Source of the DNA: an uncultured Bacillota bacterium
GTDB lineage: Bacteria > Bacillota_I > Bacilli_A > Culicoidibacterales > ZOR0006
Assembly (NCBI GenBank): GCA_945956935.1
Contig: CAMFJD010000010.1
Location: 1-54,757 of the forward strand
Length of the DNA stretch: 54,757 nt
Direction of reading: 5' to 3'
Positions 89 to 36,070 of this stretch are shown piece after piece (position 1 is the first letter of the stretch; every line of letters begins with the position of its first letter). The notes under the pieces were generated by a model. The model ran no database searches. It was not told the DNA's origin and saw only the letters and a program-made list of their open reading frames with translations. A program made the translations under genes and the position numbers.

Positions 89-3027
89 GCTTGAGAACTA
101 TCGACAATAACATAACGCCAAAACACATTCTCAACATAAATTTTTTCTAATTGAGCTTGAGAACTATCGACAATAACATAACGCCAAAACACACTATATT
201 TAGTAACAGTTCGTGATGAAGCTTGAGAACTATCGACAATAACATAACGCCAAAACTCGCATTCGATGCTCCTGTAAATTTGAGGTGCTTGAGAACTATC
301 GACAATAACATAACGCCAAAACGATGAACAGCATGAATACTGGCAGTTTCGGGCTTGAGAACTATCGACAATAACATAACGCCAAAACTACGAAACATGC
401 GCGTGATTCGTTTTTGTGGCTTGAGAACTATCGACAATAACATAACGCCAAAACATATTTGCCTTTATAGACTTTATTATTTTGGCTTGAGAACTATCGA
501 CAATAACATAACGCCAAAACGAACTAGCGCGAACAATCCGCAAGTTAAGAGCTTGAGAACTATCGACAATAACATAACGCCAAAACAAATTCGACCAAGC
601 TGAGAAGAACGCTGCGGCTTGAGAACTATCGACAATAACATAACGCCAAAACGCATTAAACAGTATGTATTCATGACATATGGCTTGAGAACTATCGACA
701 ATAACATAACGCCAAAACTTATTTAAATTCAATCGTTCAAAGAAATAAGCTTGAGAACTATCGACAATAACATAACGCCAAAACCGCTATCACCGCCCCT
801 CTACCTCAAATAAAGCTTGAGAACTATCGACAATAACATAACGCCAAAACATATATCTTGATGGAACAATGTTTGATGAAGCTTGAGAACTATCGACAAT
901 AACATAACGCCAAAACTGCCATTTTTTTGATATCTGCGGTCCTAGTGCTTGAGAACTATCGACAATAACATAACGCCAAAACAATCGGAGATTTGATTGT
1001 CGATGTTGCATCGCTTGAGAACTATCGACAATAACATAACGCCAAAACATGTCGAATGCATAGCACTCAAAGCATTTGGCTTGAGAACTATCGACAATAA
1101 CATAACGCCAAAACTGTGTCGTAATATAGAATGTTCTTGTGTGTGCTTGAGAACTATCGACAATAACATAACGCCAAAACGCATTCGTCCCATTGTCCCA
1201 ATTGCCGCCAGCTTGAGAACTATCGACAATAACATAACGCCAAAACCTCGCTCAAGATATTCAAGTGCCAACAATAGCTTGAGAACTATCGACAATAACA
1301 TAACGCCAAAACAGATGACAAAGAACATATAACAGAAGAACAGCTTGAGAACTATCGACAATAACATAACGCCAAAACAAGAAAAAAGGCGAGTTTGAAG
1401 TTATCAAGGCTTGAGAACTATCGACAATAACATAACGCCAAAACTTCTATCATTTCCTAAACCGATTCGACTGCGCTTGAGAACTATCGACAATAACATA
1501 ACGCCAAAACAGATATCGGAGATATAACACCATTTTTACCGCTTGAGAACTATCGACAATAACATAACGCCAAAACCTGGAGAGATTGAACCGTCTAGAA
1601 CAGTGAGCTTGAGAACTATCGACAATAACATAACGCCAAAACGGGAATAATAAATTTTCCATCAAATTTAAGGCTTGAGAACTATCGACAATAACATAAC
1701 GCCAAAACAACTTATATAACACACCAACAAAGAAGCTTGCTTGAGAACTATCGACAATAACATAACGCCAAAACCTGGAGTAATGACGCTCAACACTCAT
1801 GAAAGCTTGAGAACTATCGACAATAACATAACGCCAAAACTCCCCCAAGCCGATGTTTGACTCCCTTTTGGCTTGAGAACTATCGACAATAACATAACGC
1901 CAAAACTAGCGCTTCCCATGTCTTCCGTTACTGGTAGCTTGAGAACTATCGACAATAACATAACGCCAAAACAGCAATAGAAAAGTCGGTGGTAAAATCG
2001 TGGCTTGAGAACTATCGACAATAACATAACGCCAAAACTATAAGCCCCCACATTATCAACGTGTTCAAGCTTGAGAACTATCGACAATAACATAACGCCA
2101 AAACATGCGACTGCTTGCGTGCTTCTCATCAAACGCTTGAGAACTATCGACAATAACATAACGCCAAAACATATTTCATTAATCGTCAATCTCTTCCCAC
2201 GCTTGAGAACTATCGACAATAACATAACGCCAAAACTATCAGATGGAATTGGGTGACTTCTTTGACGCTTGAGAACTATCGACAATAACATAACGCCAAA
2301 ACGTTGCATTAGCAAAAATAGGCAGTTTCCTTGCTTGAGAACTATCGACAATAACATAACGCCAAAACATACGACAGATGGAAATGATTTGCTAGAAGCT
2401 TGAGAACTATCGACAATAACATAACGCCAAAACATAAAGAACAAGTTAAAAAGAACAATGTTAGCTTGAGAACTATCGACAATAACATAACGCCAAAACA
2501 GTTGATAACAAATTGATTGATGATTGTGAGCTTGAGAACTATCGACAATAACATAACGCCAAAACACACTTTTAACAAGCCCAGCAACTTTCGTAGCTTG
2601 AGAACTATCGACAATAACATAACGCCAAAACTATAAAGACTTTTTGCCTTTGCTTCAAGGTGCTTGAGAACTATCGACAATAACATAACGCCAAAACATG
2701 GGTTCAATTTGGGTGTCTACACACAACGCTTGAGAACTATCGACAATAACATAACGCCAAAACCCCGACTTAGAATAACAAATCTCAACGCTAGCTTGAG
2801 AACTATCGACAATAACATAACGCCAAAACCCTTTGATCGTCAACGTCCCATTCCCGATAGCTTGAGAACTATCGACAATAACATAACGCCAAAACGCGAA
2901 ATGTTCACAGTATTTAGATGTTATTGCTTGAGAACTATCGACAATAACATAACGCCAAAACGAAGCACCAGAATGATATTCTCCCCACGAAGCTTGAGAA
3001 CTATCGACAATAACATAACGCCAAAAC
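89..3027 (-). CRISPR. Type II-A CRISPR array, 45 repeats and 44 spacers
   Basis: A 36-bp direct repeat recurs every 66 bp, starting at 89, 155, 221 and so on to 2333, then 2398 to 2992. On the plus strand it begins GCTTGAGAAC and ends CGCCAAAAC. All 45 copies look identical by eye, including the terminal ones. Spacers are 30 bp except one of 29 bp (2369-2397). The crRNA sense is the minus strand: there the repeat starts GTTTTGGCG and ends CTCAAGC, as in Lactobacillus type II-A repeats. The cas genes are also on the minus strand, and the divergent tracrRNA is complementary to this sense. The leader is therefore at the high-coordinate end, with the newest spacers near 2962-2991. I saw no duplicated spacer. 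Confidence 0.99.
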
Positions 3028-3117
3028 CTCTATTGGTTGTATCGGCAACTGACATAACGAAAACAGGGTTACATCGACAGTTCTCAAATATATAAATAAC
3101 GATTATTTGTTATATGT
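3028..3117 (-). promoter_or_regulatory. CRISPR leader with degenerate repeat and anti-repeat-like segment
   Basis: This is the short gap between csn2 and the first repeat. Read on the minus strand, it contains a segment at 3087-3072 (TTGAGAACTGTCGAT) that can pair with the distal half of the CRISPR repeat, with one G:U. After six or seven bases comes a degenerate repeat at 3064-3028, starting GTTTTCGTTATGTC, that abuts the first true repeat. The leader ends in AATAGAG; a terminal GAG resembles the leader-anchoring motifs used by Cas1-Cas2-Csn2 in other II-A systems. The functional reading is inference. Confidence 0.75.
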
Positions 3118-3123
3118 ATTATA
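3111..3123 (-). promoter_or_regulatory. Extended -10 promoter of the CRISPR array
   Basis: On the minus strand the end of csn2 reads TATGGTATAATAC. This is a perfect TATAAT (3123-3118) with an upstream TG, so an extended -10 element. The csn2 stop codon TAA (3121-3119) lies inside the hexamer. No good -35 is seen. Transcription would start near 3111, giving a leader RNA of about 84 nt before the first repeat. Confidence 0.65.
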
Positions 3124-3814
3124 CCATATTTTCTGCTATTTCACACGTGAAATCACTAAATATCTTCAGTTTTCTTTCAAATGAATACTCCACATGATCA
3201 TGGCTCGATTCAACTAAAAGCACCTGTTGGTTCAAAAAAATAATTCGTTCATATAATCTCTTTATTTCGGGTTCAGATAAATATTTCTTGCAATCAACTA
3301 TTAAAATTCTATCATATAGATTAAATCGTTCGTTTAATTCGCAAAGTGCTTCTATTAACTCCAATGGATTCCATATTTTTTCAAAAATGAGCTCTAAATT
3401 TAAACAACGAAAAAAATCAATCACTTTTATTTTTTCAGTAAAATCATATTCGAGTGGGTAGTCTACAACAAAATCAATTACACGCGCAAACATACTCCGT
3501 TGTAATACTAACCATGATTCATATAATCTAGGATTAGTAAGTATATCGTTCTCTACCGCATCACTTAATGCTTTCAATAAATGTTTTTTTACTGCTTCTG
3601 GAAAAGTAAACACGTCAAATAGAAGCAATGTTCCTCTTGAATAATCATCATCAATAACAATGATTTGTTGATTTTCAATTCGTTCCCCCTGCACTATTTG
3701 GCAAAGTTGATGAACTATTTTCCGAAAAAATACTGTTTCTTCAAACTCAATCACACCAATTTGTTCTTTATCTACATGTAATTCTTCCTCCATAGCAGCA
3801 ATACGCACTATCAT
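3119..3814 (-). CDS. csn2: CRISPR-associated protein Csn2
   Basis: This 231-residue protein is the type II-A adaptation factor. The family forms a ring-shaped tetramer that slides on double-stranded DNA ends and acts with Cas1, Cas2 and Cas9 in spacer acquisition. The call rests on its place as the last cas gene before the array, its length (short Csn2 group) and the family-like patterns of acidic helices and the segment IIVIDDDYSRGTLLLFDVFT. It starts with ATG overlapping the cas2 stop by four bases (ATGA), so the two are translationally coupled. Sequence divergence is high in this family, so the name depends partly on context, but no alternative fits. Confidence 0.9.
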   Translation of the reverse strand: MIVRIAAMEEELHVDKEQIGVIEFEETVFFRKIVHQLCQIVQGERIENQQIIVIDDDYSRGTLLLFDVFTFPEAVKKHLLKALSDAVENDILTNPRLYESWLVLQRSMFARVIDFVVDYPLEYDFTEKIKVIDFFRCLNLELIFEKIWNPLELIEALCELNERFNLYDRILIVDCKKYLSEPEIKRLYERIIFLNQQVLLVESSHDHVEYSFERKLKIFSDFTCEIAENMV

Positions 3815-4131
3815 AATATCACCAACCGATCATCGCTATCAATGCGTTCATCTTGACCATTTCCTATAATATATTCCATTTCTGCAAACTGTTTTTCAGT
3901 AATTAACATGTACTGTATGAGCCCATTTTTAGGACTTTGATCATAGATTCGTTGTCTTAGCAACTTAGAAGCTGGTGTGTTCACTACTATTTTACTATAT
4001 ACGGATTTTTGTAACATGATGAAGCCTTCATCAATTAAAAAGCGTCTAAATTTCCTATATGCTCGCTGATCGCTCAACGTTTCCATAGGTAAGTCAAATA
4101 AAATCAGTGTTCTCATAAATCGATAACTCAT
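3811..4131 (-). CDS. cas2: CRISPR-associated endoribonuclease Cas2
   Basis: This 106-residue ferredoxin-fold protein bridges the two Cas1 dimers in the integrase complex. The N-terminal strand MRTLILFDLPMET carries the conserved Asp after the first strand, followed by the typical RAYRKFRRFLIDEGFIMLQ helix-strand and SVYSKI. It overlaps cas1 and csn2 by four bases each (ATGA), so the three genes form one translational unit. An internal Met at residue 6 gives an equally normal Cas2 N-terminus. The upstream ATG was chosen because of the coupling. Confidence 0.96.
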   Translation of the reverse strand: MSYRFMRTLILFDLPMETLSDQRAYRKFRRFLIDEGFIMLQKSVYSKIVVNTPASKLLRQRIYDQSPKNGLIQYMLITEKQFAEMEYIIGNGQDERIDSDDRLVIL

Positions 4132-5003
4132 TCAACCAATTCAAACTCAAGAATATCTGTTTTATTTTCATCATTTAAATAGTCAAAAATACTTTTTAAA
4201 TACAATGAAATCCCCCCACTATTCACGTAATATTCTTTCCCGTTAATCTTTATTTTTTTGTTCAATACATTTACAAGTTTATGTTTGTATTCACTATTTA
4301 GTTCGCTTTTTTTATTTTCAAAAACCACTTGATCAACCAATATGCGAAATGGCTCCATTAAATCACTTGCAAGATTAAACTCATTGAATTTATTGTGGTG
4401 ATTAATACCTAACTGTGTTGTATAACCTTGAGCAACTATTTCACGTGCAAAACAAGAAAGTAAAATTGTATATCCATAATCAAGTGCATCATTGATACAC
4501 GATGACTGTTCGCGATGAAATGCTTTCCCAAACAGACTGTGCCAGTATACTTTTGCTGCTTGAGCCTCACGATTTGTCTGGTCTGCTTGTTCTACTTTTT
4601 CCAAATAATCAATGAGTACTTGCTCTTCTTTTTTTAAGTGTTGATGTAATATTTCTGCTTGATTCATAATTTTATGAATTACCACTTTTTGCCATACTTG
4701 CTCTTTTCTTTGTTGATTCCAAGCAATTTGTTGCTCAAATTTACGACTTGTATCATGTGCACCATAGAGTGCTTGTAATTGTGCAAATGGCAGGTGGCGT
4801 TCATCACAGAACACCACATTGATTTTAGATTTAATGAGTTCATTCAAAAGTTGCATTGTAATTGTCACTTGATTATTTTCAATAATAAGCGTCTGCACTT
4901 CTGATAAATGGACACTTGTTACTTCTTCATCACGTAAAACGAGTGTGTTGTGGTGATAACTAAGTTTCCCTTTTTTCGTAACAATAACAGTTCGCCAGCT
5001 CAT
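4128..5003 (-). CDS. cas1: CRISPR-associated integrase Cas1 (type II)
   Basis: This 291-residue Cas1 is the metal-dependent integrase that inserts spacers at the leader end. It has the short type II form: an N-terminal beta domain (MSWRTVIVTKKGKLSYHHNT) and a helical catalytic domain. The catalytic residues appear to be the Glu in NREAQAAKVYW, the His in LGINHHNKFNEFNL and the Glu in ASDLMEPFR. It begins 12 bp after the cas9 stop and overlaps cas2 by four bases. Nothing looks truncated. Confidence 0.97.
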   Translation of the reverse strand: MSWRTVIVTKKGKLSYHHNTLVLRDEEVTSVHLSEVQTLIIENNQVTITMQLLNELIKSKINVVFCDERHLPFAQLQALYGAHDTSRKFEQQIAWNQQRKEQVWQKVVIHKIMNQAEILHQHLKKEEQVLIDYLEKVEQADQTNREAQAAKVYWHSLFGKAFHREQSSCINDALDYGYTILLSCFAREIVAQGYTTQLGINHHNKFNEFNLASDLMEPFRILVDQVVFENKKSELNSEYKHKLVNVLNKKIKINGKEYYVNSGGISLYLKSIFDYLNDENKTDILEFELVE

Positions 5004-5015
5004 GTTATGCCCCCT

Positions 5016-8000
5016 TTACACTTGCCATTTTTTACTATACATACCTGTTACGGATTGATCGATAAATGTTCTTCCAGTTACATCTACAGTTTTACCTCCC
5101 AATCTCCCTACACGACTAGATAATGAAAGCACTGTTAAGTTTGCATTTTCCGCTCTTGCAGTTGTTATTTTTAAAATTTCCAATATAGATGTTTTTTTAT
5201 CGTTACAGCTCTTTTGCATGAATAATTCTCGTTTATTTTTCAAATCTTGTTGCTGCTTTTTGTATACAGGATATACATCTAACTTATCAACTAGATAATC
5301 ATACAACTCTATCCAGTTGATTTCTTCGTCTAATTTTCCTTTTTTTTCAAACATAGAGATAATATCTCCATATTTCTTAGGTAAAACAAGCTGCTTTGCA
5401 TTATTCCATTCTGTTGGTGACGCGAGTGTATACAAACCACCATCAAGTTCAAATAATTGATTTTTTAACACCTTATTTCTGACTATTTGAATATTCTCAA
5501 CCTTTCCACCTTTTTGTTCATATTTTTCAATAATCTTCCTTTGAATATATGCTGATAGCACTTCAGGTTTTGTCTGTGCTATTTTCGCATATTCAACAGG
5601 AATCCCTAACAATTCTTTTTTTAATGTCCGCTTCGCTTTTGCACCAGTTATCACTTCACATGTAAAAATAACACTGTATGCAGAGTTAACCCCTTCATAT
5701 CCACCATATTTCGCGGAATCCATGCCCGATTTACGTGAGTGAATACCTTCTTTTTTCTTAACAGGGTTCAAATTCCATAATTCCCCTGTATTTTCTTCCA
5801 ATTTTTTTGTGATAAAGCAATCGCGATAGCTTAAATATTTACGTACTTTTGCGACTTCTGCCTCACCATCCCAAATTAAGAGACCTGTTTCTTTATCAAA
5901 CTGTTTTTCGCCCATATTTGAAGAAAGAAAATTATATCTACTTTTACGAATCTCTTTCATTTTTTTACTTTGATAGACTAGATAACTTTCATATAAAAAT
6001 TCCTCATTCATTCCTGAGTAACACTTTTGAATAAAATTACCTACTAATGTTGTTAAATAGGCATCATGTGCGTGATGATAATCATTAACTGTCCTTGTTT
6101 TAAATAATTTATTTTTACTTCTGAAATCACTGGCTATACTTGATTTTAAGCTATACACGTTCGCCTTGTTTGAGCGTTGTAATAATTGGGCAACATGTTT
6201 TGAAATTTGTCGTGTTTCTACAAGTTGTCGATTGATAAACCCTTTGACATATTCCTCTTTGAATATCGGCATCATCAGATAGTTGTATTTTCGTTGTGTC
6301 ATTAAGCCTGTTTTTTTCAATGCTTCCCATAATTTTTTTGCTTGAGAAGTCGCAATAGAAAATGCCGTCTTATCATCTGATTTCTGCTGATTTTCTGTCG
6401 CCAAAACAAGCACTTTATTGTCAATACTATCATTTTTAACGAGTGATCTTGGAATAATATGATCTACTTGATACTCATTCAAATTTTCTAAATTTAAGGC
6501 AGTGCCAGAGTACGCACTTCTTCCATTTTGAATAAAATATAAAAACAATTTTTCATTAATATCTTTATTATCCATATGTTTCAATTCTTTGCGCAAATCC
6601 TGAAGTTCACTATCACTGTCTATATTTTCATATAATTTTTCTAGTTGATGTAAACGTGAATTTGTACGTTTTGATGCTTGGTCTTCACGTGCAAACTCGA
6701 TGAAGATGTTTGTTGCTGGGCATCCTACAACTTTTTCAATCTCATCAACAATTTGAATTGTTTGCCAAATGCCACGCTTCAACGCTGGTGATCCTGCTAG
6801 TTGTTTTATTTCTTCGTATGTCACTTTTTTATTCTCACCCTTATTTAACTGATCATCTAAATATGCTTTAAATTCATATCGTTCACTGTTAATTATTTGC
6901 ATGAAGTTCAAATTTTTATTCCATAAGATATCCATAATCGTATATGATTTTTCATCAATGAATGTCGTAAGACCAATTAACAATTTTTTTGATAACTTTG
7001 ACCAACCACTATAACGTAAACGAGTAATTTTTTTTATGATATCATCACTTAATTCTGGATAATTTTGGCTGATTTTACGCTCGATTATTTTCTTATCTTC
7101 AAAAACTGTCAACCATTCTATCAATTGCTCAATCATTCCATTATTTTCATGGACAAATTCATTACCAAAAATCTTTACAAAATCAATATAAGAATTCAAA
7201 TTTGCCGCAAACCCTTTTTCATCTTGTGTTCCTGTTATTTCATATGATCCATTGTACGGTTGCCAGTTTTGTTGACAAAATGTAATTATATCTTTTTTAG
7301 TGACTGTTTTCTTGAATGATTGCTGGAAACAGTGTTGAAAAATTTCTTTTTTCTGATTTGGCTCCAAAAGTTTCCCATTAATACGAACTTTATTCAATTC
7401 ATTTAACACTGTAAATTCATTGTAAAGTAATGAATACCTTGGGAACACTGGTTCTCCAATAATATATGTACATGTACTTGTCATTTTACGGATAAATTTC
7501 TCCGCTGACTGATCACGATCCACTAACTCTTCAAAATTCCATGGATAAATACGACCTGTTTGCTTAAATTCAGCCCAAGAAAATATACTTTTCTCGGTTT
7601 CAGTCAATGGTCCAACATAATAGGGAATTCTGAATGTCAAAATTTGCTGAATTTTATCCTGTACTGCTGCAAGTTCTGGATAAAATTGGCTTTGATTCGT
7701 TAAAATTTGTTTCAATTCTTCAAGCTGTAATTGATATGGAATTGCTCCATTATCTGTGCTATTTTGCTTTGGTAAAAATATCTCTTGATCAATATCAACA
7801 AAAATTTGTTGTACTCGCTGGTCAGCTTCATAGTTCTTTAACAGCTTTTTGATTTCAGTGTACAAATCTATTTGTGTACATGTTTTTTTCGCTTTTTGCT
7901 TTTTATTCTTCACAAATGTTTTTTTCGTATAATTCACGTAATTTATTAGTTTATCATCATCGCTTCTGAAAAAGCGTACATACATTTCTTGCGTACAATG

Positions 8001-9029
8001 TTCTCTCACGACTGATTTCAAAAGCTTTAAATCACTGGCGTGTTTCTCATACTTTTTAATCATTGCCTGAGTCAAACTCTCTTCACCTTTTAATACATTT
8101 TGTAACACATACCAACTATACATCCGTTCAAGTCGATCAATAATTTCAATATCATCTTGTAACAATGTTGTAAGGACATCTTTTGTTTCCTCAAATGATG
8201 TATCATTTAAACTAAAACTAATTGGTTTCCCAGCTTCATTCACAAAACTATCATTAAAGGCTGTTTTTGCATTCATTTTCATACCCGTGATAGCTTTAAA
8301 AATTTCTTGCCATTTTTTCTTCTCAGTTGTTCCTAACTTTCCTAAACAATCAATTGCTTTTTTGACCTGCTCACTACGATACAATGTCACATCTTGAAAT
8401 ACACACATAATTTGCTTCGATATTTCTTGCGTGACTTCTGTTAAAATCCATTCACTTTCATTTAATAATCCAGATAACTCAAAAAACTCACTATCAAAAG
8501 CATTTGTTATATTAGTTAAGTCTTGGTCTTCATACAAAAAATTCCCGCGATATTTCAATAAATGACTGAGTGCAAGATAAATCAAACGTGGATCTATTTT
8601 TTCTGTTTTTCCTTTCCCGTTGATAAGTTCGTTGCGTAAATGATACATCGTTGGATACTGTGCAAAATAGTGTTTATCATTGAAGTTTTTATCGATAAAT
8701 AAATTAAAATTATCACCGTGCTTATATTGATTATCTTCACGATGAAGTTGTGTTGCAGCAATTCGTGCGTAGAATGATGGATCAATAGGTGTAATTATTG
8801 GTTCCATCAACTCACGTAACAATGCTAATCGTTGCTTCCTACGATTCATCCTCCGACGTGTACTACGATAGACTCGACGTTCTACTGCTGTTTCAGCCGT
8901 ATTAAATAACCTAGCTCCCCACATATTTTGTTTTTTATGTTTCAGCAAATTATTATCCATATCTGTGACTGCCCATCCAACTGAGTTCGTCCCAATATCT
9001 AATCCAATATTATAATTAATTTGTTTCAT
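5016..9029 (-). CDS. cas9: CRISPR-associated endonuclease Cas9 (type II-A)
   Basis: This 1337-residue RNA-guided DNA endonuclease has all catalytic residues. RuvC-I has Asp11 in IGLDIGTNSVGWAV. An Arg-rich bridge helix covers about residues 50-70. RuvC-II has Glu778 in FIEFARE. HNH has Asp856-His857 in VDHIIP, Asn871 and Asn880. RuvC-III has His986 and Asp989 in HHAHDAY. The spacing between RuvC-I and the bridge helix is short, as in Lactobacillus rhamnosus-type Cas9 and unlike Streptococcus pyogenes. The C-terminal PAM-interacting part ends FIDQSVTGMYSKKWQV, matching the usual end of II-A Cas9. The start has a strong Shine-Dalgarno site, AAGGAGGG. It heads the cas9-cas1-cas2-csn2 operon. The PAM cannot be read from the sequence. 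Confidence 0.99.
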   Translation of the reverse strand: MKQINYNIGLDIGTNSVGWAVTDMDNNLLKHKKQNMWGARLFNTAETAVERRVYRSTRRRMNRRKQRLALLRELMEPIITPIDPSFYARIAATQLHREDNQYKHGDNFNLFIDKNFNDKHYFAQYPTMYHLRNELINGKGKTEKIDPRLIYLALSHLLKYRGNFLYEDQDLTNITNAFDSEFFELSGLLNESEWILTEVTQEISKQIMCVFQDVTLYRSEQVKKAIDCLGKLGTTEKKKWQEIFKAITGMKMNAKTAFNDSFVNEAGKPISFSLNDTSFEETKDVLTTLLQDDIEIIDRLERMYSWYVLQNVLKGEESLTQAMIKKYEKHASDLKLLKSVVREHCTQEMYVRFFRSDDDKLINYVNYTKKTFVKNKKQKAKKTCTQIDLYTEIKKLLKNYEADQRVQQIFVDIDQEIFLPKQNSTDNGAIPYQLQLEELKQILTNQSQFYPELAAVQDKIQQILTFRIPYYVGPLTETEKSIFSWAEFKQTGRIYPWNFEELVDRDQSAEKFIRKMTSTCTYIIGEPVFPRYSLLYNEFTVLNELNKVRINGKLLEPNQKKEIFQHCFQQSFKKTVTKKDIITFCQQNWQPYNGSYEITGTQDEKGFAANLNSYIDFVKIFGNEFVHENNGMIEQLIEWLTVFEDKKIIERKISQNYPELSDDIIKKITRLRYSGWSKLSKKLLIGLTTFIDEKSYTIMDILWNKNLNFMQIINSERYEFKAYLDDQLNKGENKKVTYEEIKQLAGSPALKRGIWQTIQIVDEIEKVVGCPATNIFIEFAREDQASKRTNSRLHQLEKLYENIDSDSELQDLRKELKHMDNKDINEKLFLYFIQNGRSAYSGTALNLENLNEYQVDHIIPRSLVKNDSIDNKVLVLATENQQKSDDKTAFSIATSQAKKLWEALKKTGLMTQRKYNYLMMPIFKEEYVKGFINRQLVETRQISKHVAQLLQRSNKANVYSLKSSIASDFRSKNKLFKTRTVNDYHHAHDAYLTTLVGNFIQKCYSGMNEEFLYESYLVYQSKKMKEIRKSRYNFLSSNMGEKQFDKETGLLIWDGEAEVAKVRKYLSYRDCFITKKLEENTGELWNLNPVKKKEGIHSRKSGMDSAKYGGYEGVNSAYSVIFTCEVITGAKAKRTLKKELLGIPVEYAKIAQTKPEVLSAYIQRKIIEKYEQKGGKVENIQIVRNKVLKNQLFELDGGLYTLASPTEWNNAKQLVLPKKYGDIISMFEKKGKLDEEINWIELYDYLVDKLDVYPVYKKQQQDLKNKRELFMQKSCNDKKTSILEILKITTARAENANLTVLSLSSRVGRLGGKTVDVTGRTFIDQSVTGMYSKKWQV

Positions 9030-9834: not shown

Positions 9835-10497
9835 TTAATAGTCTGTATTCGCTGTCTTATGTTGCATCAATAATACTCCACTCGATGTTCCAATACGTGT
9901 TGCTCCTGCTTCCACCATTGCTTCCATATCTGCATACGAACGAACTCCGCCACTCGCTTTCACACCGATATCTGGTCCGACTGTTTCACGCATTAATTTT
10001 ACATCTTCAACTGTTGCTCCACCTGTTGAGAAGCCTGTTGATGTTTTAACATAATCCGCTCCAGCAGCTACTGATGCTAAACATGCTTTTACTTTCTCTT
10101 CATCAGTTAATAAACATGTTTCGATAATGACTTTTACAAGTGTCCCATTTGCCGCTTCTACCACAGCACGAATATCTCGCTCAACCAATTCAAAATCACC
10201 GGCTTTTGCTGCTCCAATGTTAATCACCATATCGATTTCTTGTGCACCGTTATCAATAGCATTCTTAGTTTCAAATGCTTTTACTTCAGGCGTATTCGCA
10301 CCTAATGGAAAGCCAATAACCGTGCACACTTTTACGTCACTACCTGCTAATAACTGACTCGTTAAAGCTACCCATGTAGGATTAATACATACTGATGCAA
10401 AATCATATGCACGTGCTTCTTCGCAAATTACTTCTACCTGAGACTGTACTGTTTCTGGTTTTAAGATTGTATGATCGATTAATTTATTTAAACTCAT
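9835..10497 (-). CDS. deoC: Deoxyribose-phosphate aldolase
   Basis: This 220-residue TIM-barrel enzyme converts 2-deoxyribose-5-phosphate to acetaldehyde and glyceraldehyde-3-phosphate in deoxynucleoside catabolism. The Schiff-base Lys is K151 in YVKTSTGF. The proton relay is D89 (EIDMVINIG) and K180 (GVKASGG). The start has AAAAGGAG upstream. It sits 31 bp downstream of the tocopherol-cyclase-like gene and is probably co-transcribed with it. The usual deo partners (nucleoside phosphorylases, cdd, deoB) are not in the window. Confidence 0.97.
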
Positions 10498-35833: not shown

Positions 35834-36070
35834 AAAAAAAGACTCGTCCTTATTTCTAAGGACGAGTTTACTCGCGGTACCACCTTAGTTCATAGCAATA
35901 CAGCTACGCACTCTTGTTTCCTTGACGCAGATTCACGGATACAGTTTTTGACCCCGTATCGACTCCCAAGTGAGTTCACAGTTGCTTTTCCTACTTTGCA
36001 CCAACCAGTAAGTCTCTGATAAAAACATTGCCTGTTACTACTCTTGTTCATAGTCTTTACTATTTAACTA
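35834..36070 (-). promoter_or_regulatory. Leucine T-box riboswitch of leuS
   Basis: The minus strand holds the T-box AAGGTGGTACCGCG (35886-35873), followed by a terminator stem (ACTCGTCCTTA/TAAGGACGAGT) with seven T (35867-35834). The stem I region has AGTA- and GGTTGGTGCAAAGTAGG-type bulges. The probable specifier is CTC (35974-35972, in GTGAACTCAC), reading leucine. Uncharged tRNA-Leu stabilises the antiterminator and lets leuS be transcribed. Confidence 0.93.

Follow-up and report, generated by a model that had tools for sequence, protein, structure and literature searches.

The window, which is the whole stretch of 54,757 nucleotides analysed here, was found to carry a complete type II-A CRISPR-Cas locus on its minus strand. 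The cas9, cas1, cas2 and csn2 genes are located together in one operon, all four scored above the cut-offs of their profiles, and a tracrRNA was also detected; on this basis the locus was assigned to subtype II-A. Its features are as follows.

5016..9029, minus strand: cas9, 1337 amino acids (TIGR01865)
4128..5003, minus strand: cas1 (TIGR03639)
3811..4131, minus strand: cas2 (TIGR01573)
3119..3814, minus strand: csn2, marker of subtype II-A (TIGR01866)
3118-3028, minus strand: leader, between the end of csn2 and repeat 1
89..3027, minus strand: CRISPR array, 45 perfect 36-nt repeats in this contig, reaching the contig edge
9175..9212, plus strand: tracrRNA anti-repeat, divergent from cas9

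The array lies downstream of csn2 and the tracrRNA upstream of cas9, and the duplex between the tracrRNA anti-repeat and the repeat was calculated at −45.4 kcal/mol. The array resumes on contig C18 of the same genome, G000 (C18:68-630), and the contig break falls inside the array. The last repeat on contig C18 is degenerate, with 91% identity over 35 nt, which is what the oldest end of an array should show. The repeat of the array at 89-3027 terminates in CTCAAGC and lacks the symmetrical ends (GTTTT...AAAAC) that most related II-A repeats have. Elsewhere in the window, on the minus strand at 35855-36060, the Rfam model RF00230 detected a T-box leader with a score of 129 bits.

The leader and its borders contain the following elements.

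3118..3126, minus strand: promoter-like element TGGTATAAT of the extended −10 type, where csn2 ends
3068..3088, minus strand: distal leader arm, anti-repeat-like, pairing with the 3' half of repeat 1
3040..3064, minus strand: repeat-like stretch GTTTTCGTTATGTCAGTTGCCGATA, aligning with two small gaps to repeat positions 1-26 and located within the hairpin loop
3039..3047, minus strand: possible proximal leader arm TGCCGATAC, with the potential to pair with repeat 1 at its 5' end
3028..3034, minus strand: leader end AATAGAG adjoining GTTT, at the position of the adaptation motif (Group 1 motif ATTTGAG; PMC5382924)
2992..3027, minus strand: first repeat (repeat 1), 36 nt, with which the leader arm pairs

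An exact ATTTGAG (3090-3084) is present where the anti-repeat arm begins and is not followed there by GTTT; the leader itself ends in AATAGAG directly before the GTTT of the repeat.

The segment TTGAGAACTGTCGA (minus strand, 3087-3074) is the reverse complement of the distal part of the repeat, with one G:U pair. It is the sole match with one mismatch outside the array, the chance expectation at two or fewer mismatches being 0.52. An earlier note on this DNA had described a pairing of 14 bp with one G:U between this segment and the distal half of the repeat; its sequence and coordinates were correct, and its length was understated, as the helix formed by 3088-3068 with repeat positions of about 14-34 comprises 21 bp with one bulged base. 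The duplex of the arm with repeat 1 was calculated at −31.0 kcal/mol, compared with −14.8 ± 2.5 kcal/mol for dinucleotide-shuffled leaders (0 of 200 as good), and this value was reached by none of 1,026 control windows of 100 nt from the rest of the contig, the best of which gave −30.3. When the leader was folded together with repeat 1, spacer 1 and repeat 2, a check that the note had proposed, the arm paired with repeat 1 at a mean probability of 0.94 and with repeat 2 at 0.01. The predicted helix is stable and spans the portion of repeat 1 to which tracrRNA binds. For the fold as a whole (151 nt), the z-score was only −1.7.

For comparison with related leaders, GTDB genomes were searched for the 80 Cas9 loci nearest to this one, all with identities of about 40-41% or lower, and 53 arrays in the same orientation were obtained from these loci, giving 54 leaders with the present one. 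None of the 148 further genomes in the relatives sample contained the same repeat, and it was also absent from IMG/VR and from the 80 closest Cas9 loci. A first genome scan with the single Cas9 and a Csn2 scan of viral contigs gave no matches, and a plasmid search gave no close Cas9. Since no relative with the same repeat was present in the collections searched, covariation was analysed at the family level.

Pairing with the own first repeat was better than in 95% of shuffled leaders for 50 of the 54 leaders, and the mean duplex energy was −22.3 for leaders with their own repeats against −14.8 for swapped pairs. For the distal arm alone, the matched pairing was equalled in 0 of 5,000 permutations across the family. 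RNAalifold, given no hint, recovered the leader-repeat helix, and 7 of its 8 pairs had compensatory changes. A 19-pair frame was picked by us from one relative and then checked on this leader; in this frame 75% of cells pair, against 36-46% after sliding by one to three columns, and two-sided changes numbered 66 (in 15 of the 19 pairs) against 32 on shuffling. As the sequences are related to each other, these shuffle and permutation counts overstate the significance. Six pairs of the present leader are changed on both sides relative to the commonest pairs of its relatives. A divergent branch in which leader and repeat have both changed and still pair is good comparative evidence for selection on the hairpin. 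Taken together, the fold and the family-wide covariation strongly support the proposal of the earlier note that the leader folds with repeat 1, and the comparison of relatives' leaders that it had called for revealed pairing that covaries across II-A systems. Its suggestion that the anti-repeat segment could be a relic of an inverted repeat insertion finds no support; the segment is a maintained and co-adapted element of II-A leaders.

With complementarity, fold, family covariation and subtype established by computation, and as pairing beyond chance in 50 of 54 leaders together with covariation is what identifies the leader-repeat hairpin already described for type II-A, we consider it highly probable that the leader forms such a hairpin, masking repeat 1 and favouring the newest crRNA. 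Transcription of the leader would start at a promoter at the end of csn2. The candidate there is the extended −10 element at 3126-3118, which would place the transcription start about 20 nt ahead of the arm; TGNTATAAT was detected in the region −130..−51 of 8 of the 54 II-A loci (0.66 expected), and a sigma-70 scan detected no −35 box for TGGTATAAT. Once repeat 1 is transcribed, the leader segment 3088-3068 would pair in cis with its 3' half, a pairing supported by the fold and the family covariation, and the helix would hide the surface that tracrRNA needs on repeat 1. With this surface covered, repeat 1 would not be processed into an extraneous, leader-guided crRNA, which would carry the guide GCCGATACAACCAATAGAG derived from the leader, and crRNA1 from the newest spacer may be favoured as a result. 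By analogy with the II-A systems studied experimentally, we infer the block of tracrRNA, the prevention of the extraneous crRNA and the effect on crRNA1. As the cis hairpin (−31.0) is weaker than the tracrRNA duplex with the repeat, the block must rest on cis, co-transcriptional kinetics. The earlier note had also raised a competition for tracrRNA; here the folding with repeat 1 is strongly supported, and the competition itself would follow from the proposed mechanism.

The loop of this hairpin contains the stretch GTTTTCGTTATGTCAGTTGCCGATA, which the note had described as resembling a repeat without its last third. The resemblance proved to be statistically real and private to this leader. 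Its alignment to the repeat scored 31 against 16.6 ± 2.7 for shuffles (0 of 1,000), the resemblance was equalled in 12 of 60,000 shuffles, and the only other contig region with a higher score was the tracrRNA anti-repeat region. At this place the relatives have a small hairpin and a proximal arm, and a repeat-like stretch on the same strand was found in none of the other intact leaders of the family of 54. The function of the leader-repeat hairpin does not need the repeat-like stretch.

As to its origin, we give about an even chance to a fortuitous resemblance, favoured by the fact that some of its bases must pair with repeat 1. The absence of such a stretch from every other intact leader agrees with this explanation, as does the rise in chance matches to 32 of 20,000 shuffles when TCGTTATG alone was kept fixed, whereas the low frequency in unconditioned shuffles and the lack of any contig window scoring as high outside the tracrRNA argue against it. 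We regard it as possible, though doubtful, that 3064-3040 is instead what is left of an earlier repeat, copied in tandem or integrated in the wrong place, whose spacer has been lost and which is now degenerating within the leader; this would be compatible with the hairpin. The same-strand match to repeat positions 1-26 is in line with such an origin, and there is a precedent in one relative, L137. The leader of L137 does resemble its repeat, with a mutated repeat-like copy about 67 nt before the first recognised repeat, around 9887-9923; this resemblance arises because its leader-proximal repeat is itself mutated, and the L137 array probably begins with a decayed repeat. The stretch studied here, however, is not a full-length repeat copy followed by a spacer: the similarity ends at repeat position 26, and the stretch runs directly into repeat 1. 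Relatives hold their small hairpin and proximal arm at the same place without repeat-like sequence, and one significant intact leader among about 53 corresponds to a family-wise chance of about 1%, which is not negligible.

In the minimum-energy folds of most relatives, the 3' half of the repeat is paired with the distal arm and its 5' part with a proximal arm, and the middle of the leader forms a small hairpin. The proximal arms are co-adapted across the family (0 of 5,000 permutations, a count subject to the same relatedness), and modest covariation was observed for the small hairpin. In L076-L114 the tip of this covarying hairpin carries a mid-leader motif near GGAGTC[AG]TT, at about −45 to −30 relative to repeat 1, and the motif recurs in about two thirds of the related II-A leaders. 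These observations suggest that, in many II-A loci of Group 1, leader and repeat 1 may build a three-way junction, composed of the distal arm, the motif-bearing hairpin and the proximal arm, rather than a simple hairpin; such a form, drawn from the family alignment, would be a more elaborate and testable structure. For the present leader, the proximal arm TGCCGATAC was not significant on its own (37 of 200 shuffles as good) and the small hairpin was weak and not significant, so that only the distal helix is claimed. As an instance of the mid-leader motif of the relatives, TTTTCGTTATG was rejected for its poor score.

It is improbable, in our estimation, that the leader consists of two modules with separate jobs, the anti-repeat arm masking repeat 1 and the repeat mimic in the exposed loop capturing tracrRNA and passing it to the next repeat. 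If true, a two-module leader would sharpen the priority of the newest spacer; the three-way junction is the milder version and more likely. We consider very unlikely a further idea, put forward in the earlier note, that the leader acts as a guide-like decoy, in which the pseudo-repeat, or anti-repeat and pseudo-repeat together, would bind tracrRNA or Cas9 like a natural single guide and tune immunity. The duplex of the repeat-like stretch with tracrRNA does exceed shuffled sequences (−16.5 vs −10.8 ± 2.8; 15 of 500 as good), but it is weak beside the −45.4 of the true repeat. In addition, the anti-repeat precedes the repeat, opposite to the order in a single guide of the tracr-L kind, the tail is missing, with neither nexus nor terminator hairpins downstream, and a genome-wide target search for leader-derived guides at up to three mismatches returned the leader itself as the sole match. 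Hardly any weight can be given to a function of the inverted repeat as DNA, in a cruciform or as a Cas1-Cas2 adaptation signal: the leader end does guide spacer integration (PMC5382924) but known adaptation motifs occupy the last 7-10 nt and not −61..−41, and the covariation includes G:U pairs, pointing to RNA.

The leader-repeat hairpin of type II-A was described by Liao et al. (2022, Nat Microbiol 7:530); as summarised in PMC13187072 and PMC12080349, pairing of the leader with repeat 1 of II-A arrays blocks the extraneous crRNA and favours crRNA1. The present element resembles these hairpins in that the locus bears Csn2, part of the leader ahead of the array forms a helix with the tracrRNA-binding portion of repeat 1, and the pairing covaries across relatives. 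It differs from those described in its very divergent Cas9, with about 41% identity or less to any found, in a repeat ending in CTCAAGC instead of AAAAC, in a predicted helix that is unusually long (21 bp) and strong, and in the repeat-like stretch within the loop. In type VI systems the leader also folds with the first repeat and blocks an extraneous crRNA (PMC13187072); those, unlike the present locus, are Cas13 systems without tracrRNA, and the first crRNA is reportedly not favoured (PMC13187072). The natural single guide tracr-L of S. pyogenes likewise presents an anti-repeat-like sequence in a CRISPR-associated RNA (Workman 2021, cited in PMC13187072; PMC11417352), whereas the segment described here lies in the array leader, lacks a tracrRNA tail and has the wrong order for a single guide. 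The hairpin is a real and strong, though ordinary, case of an element already known, and with it the range of the II-A leader-repeat hairpin comes to include a very divergent branch of Cas9 systems whose repeat is unusual.
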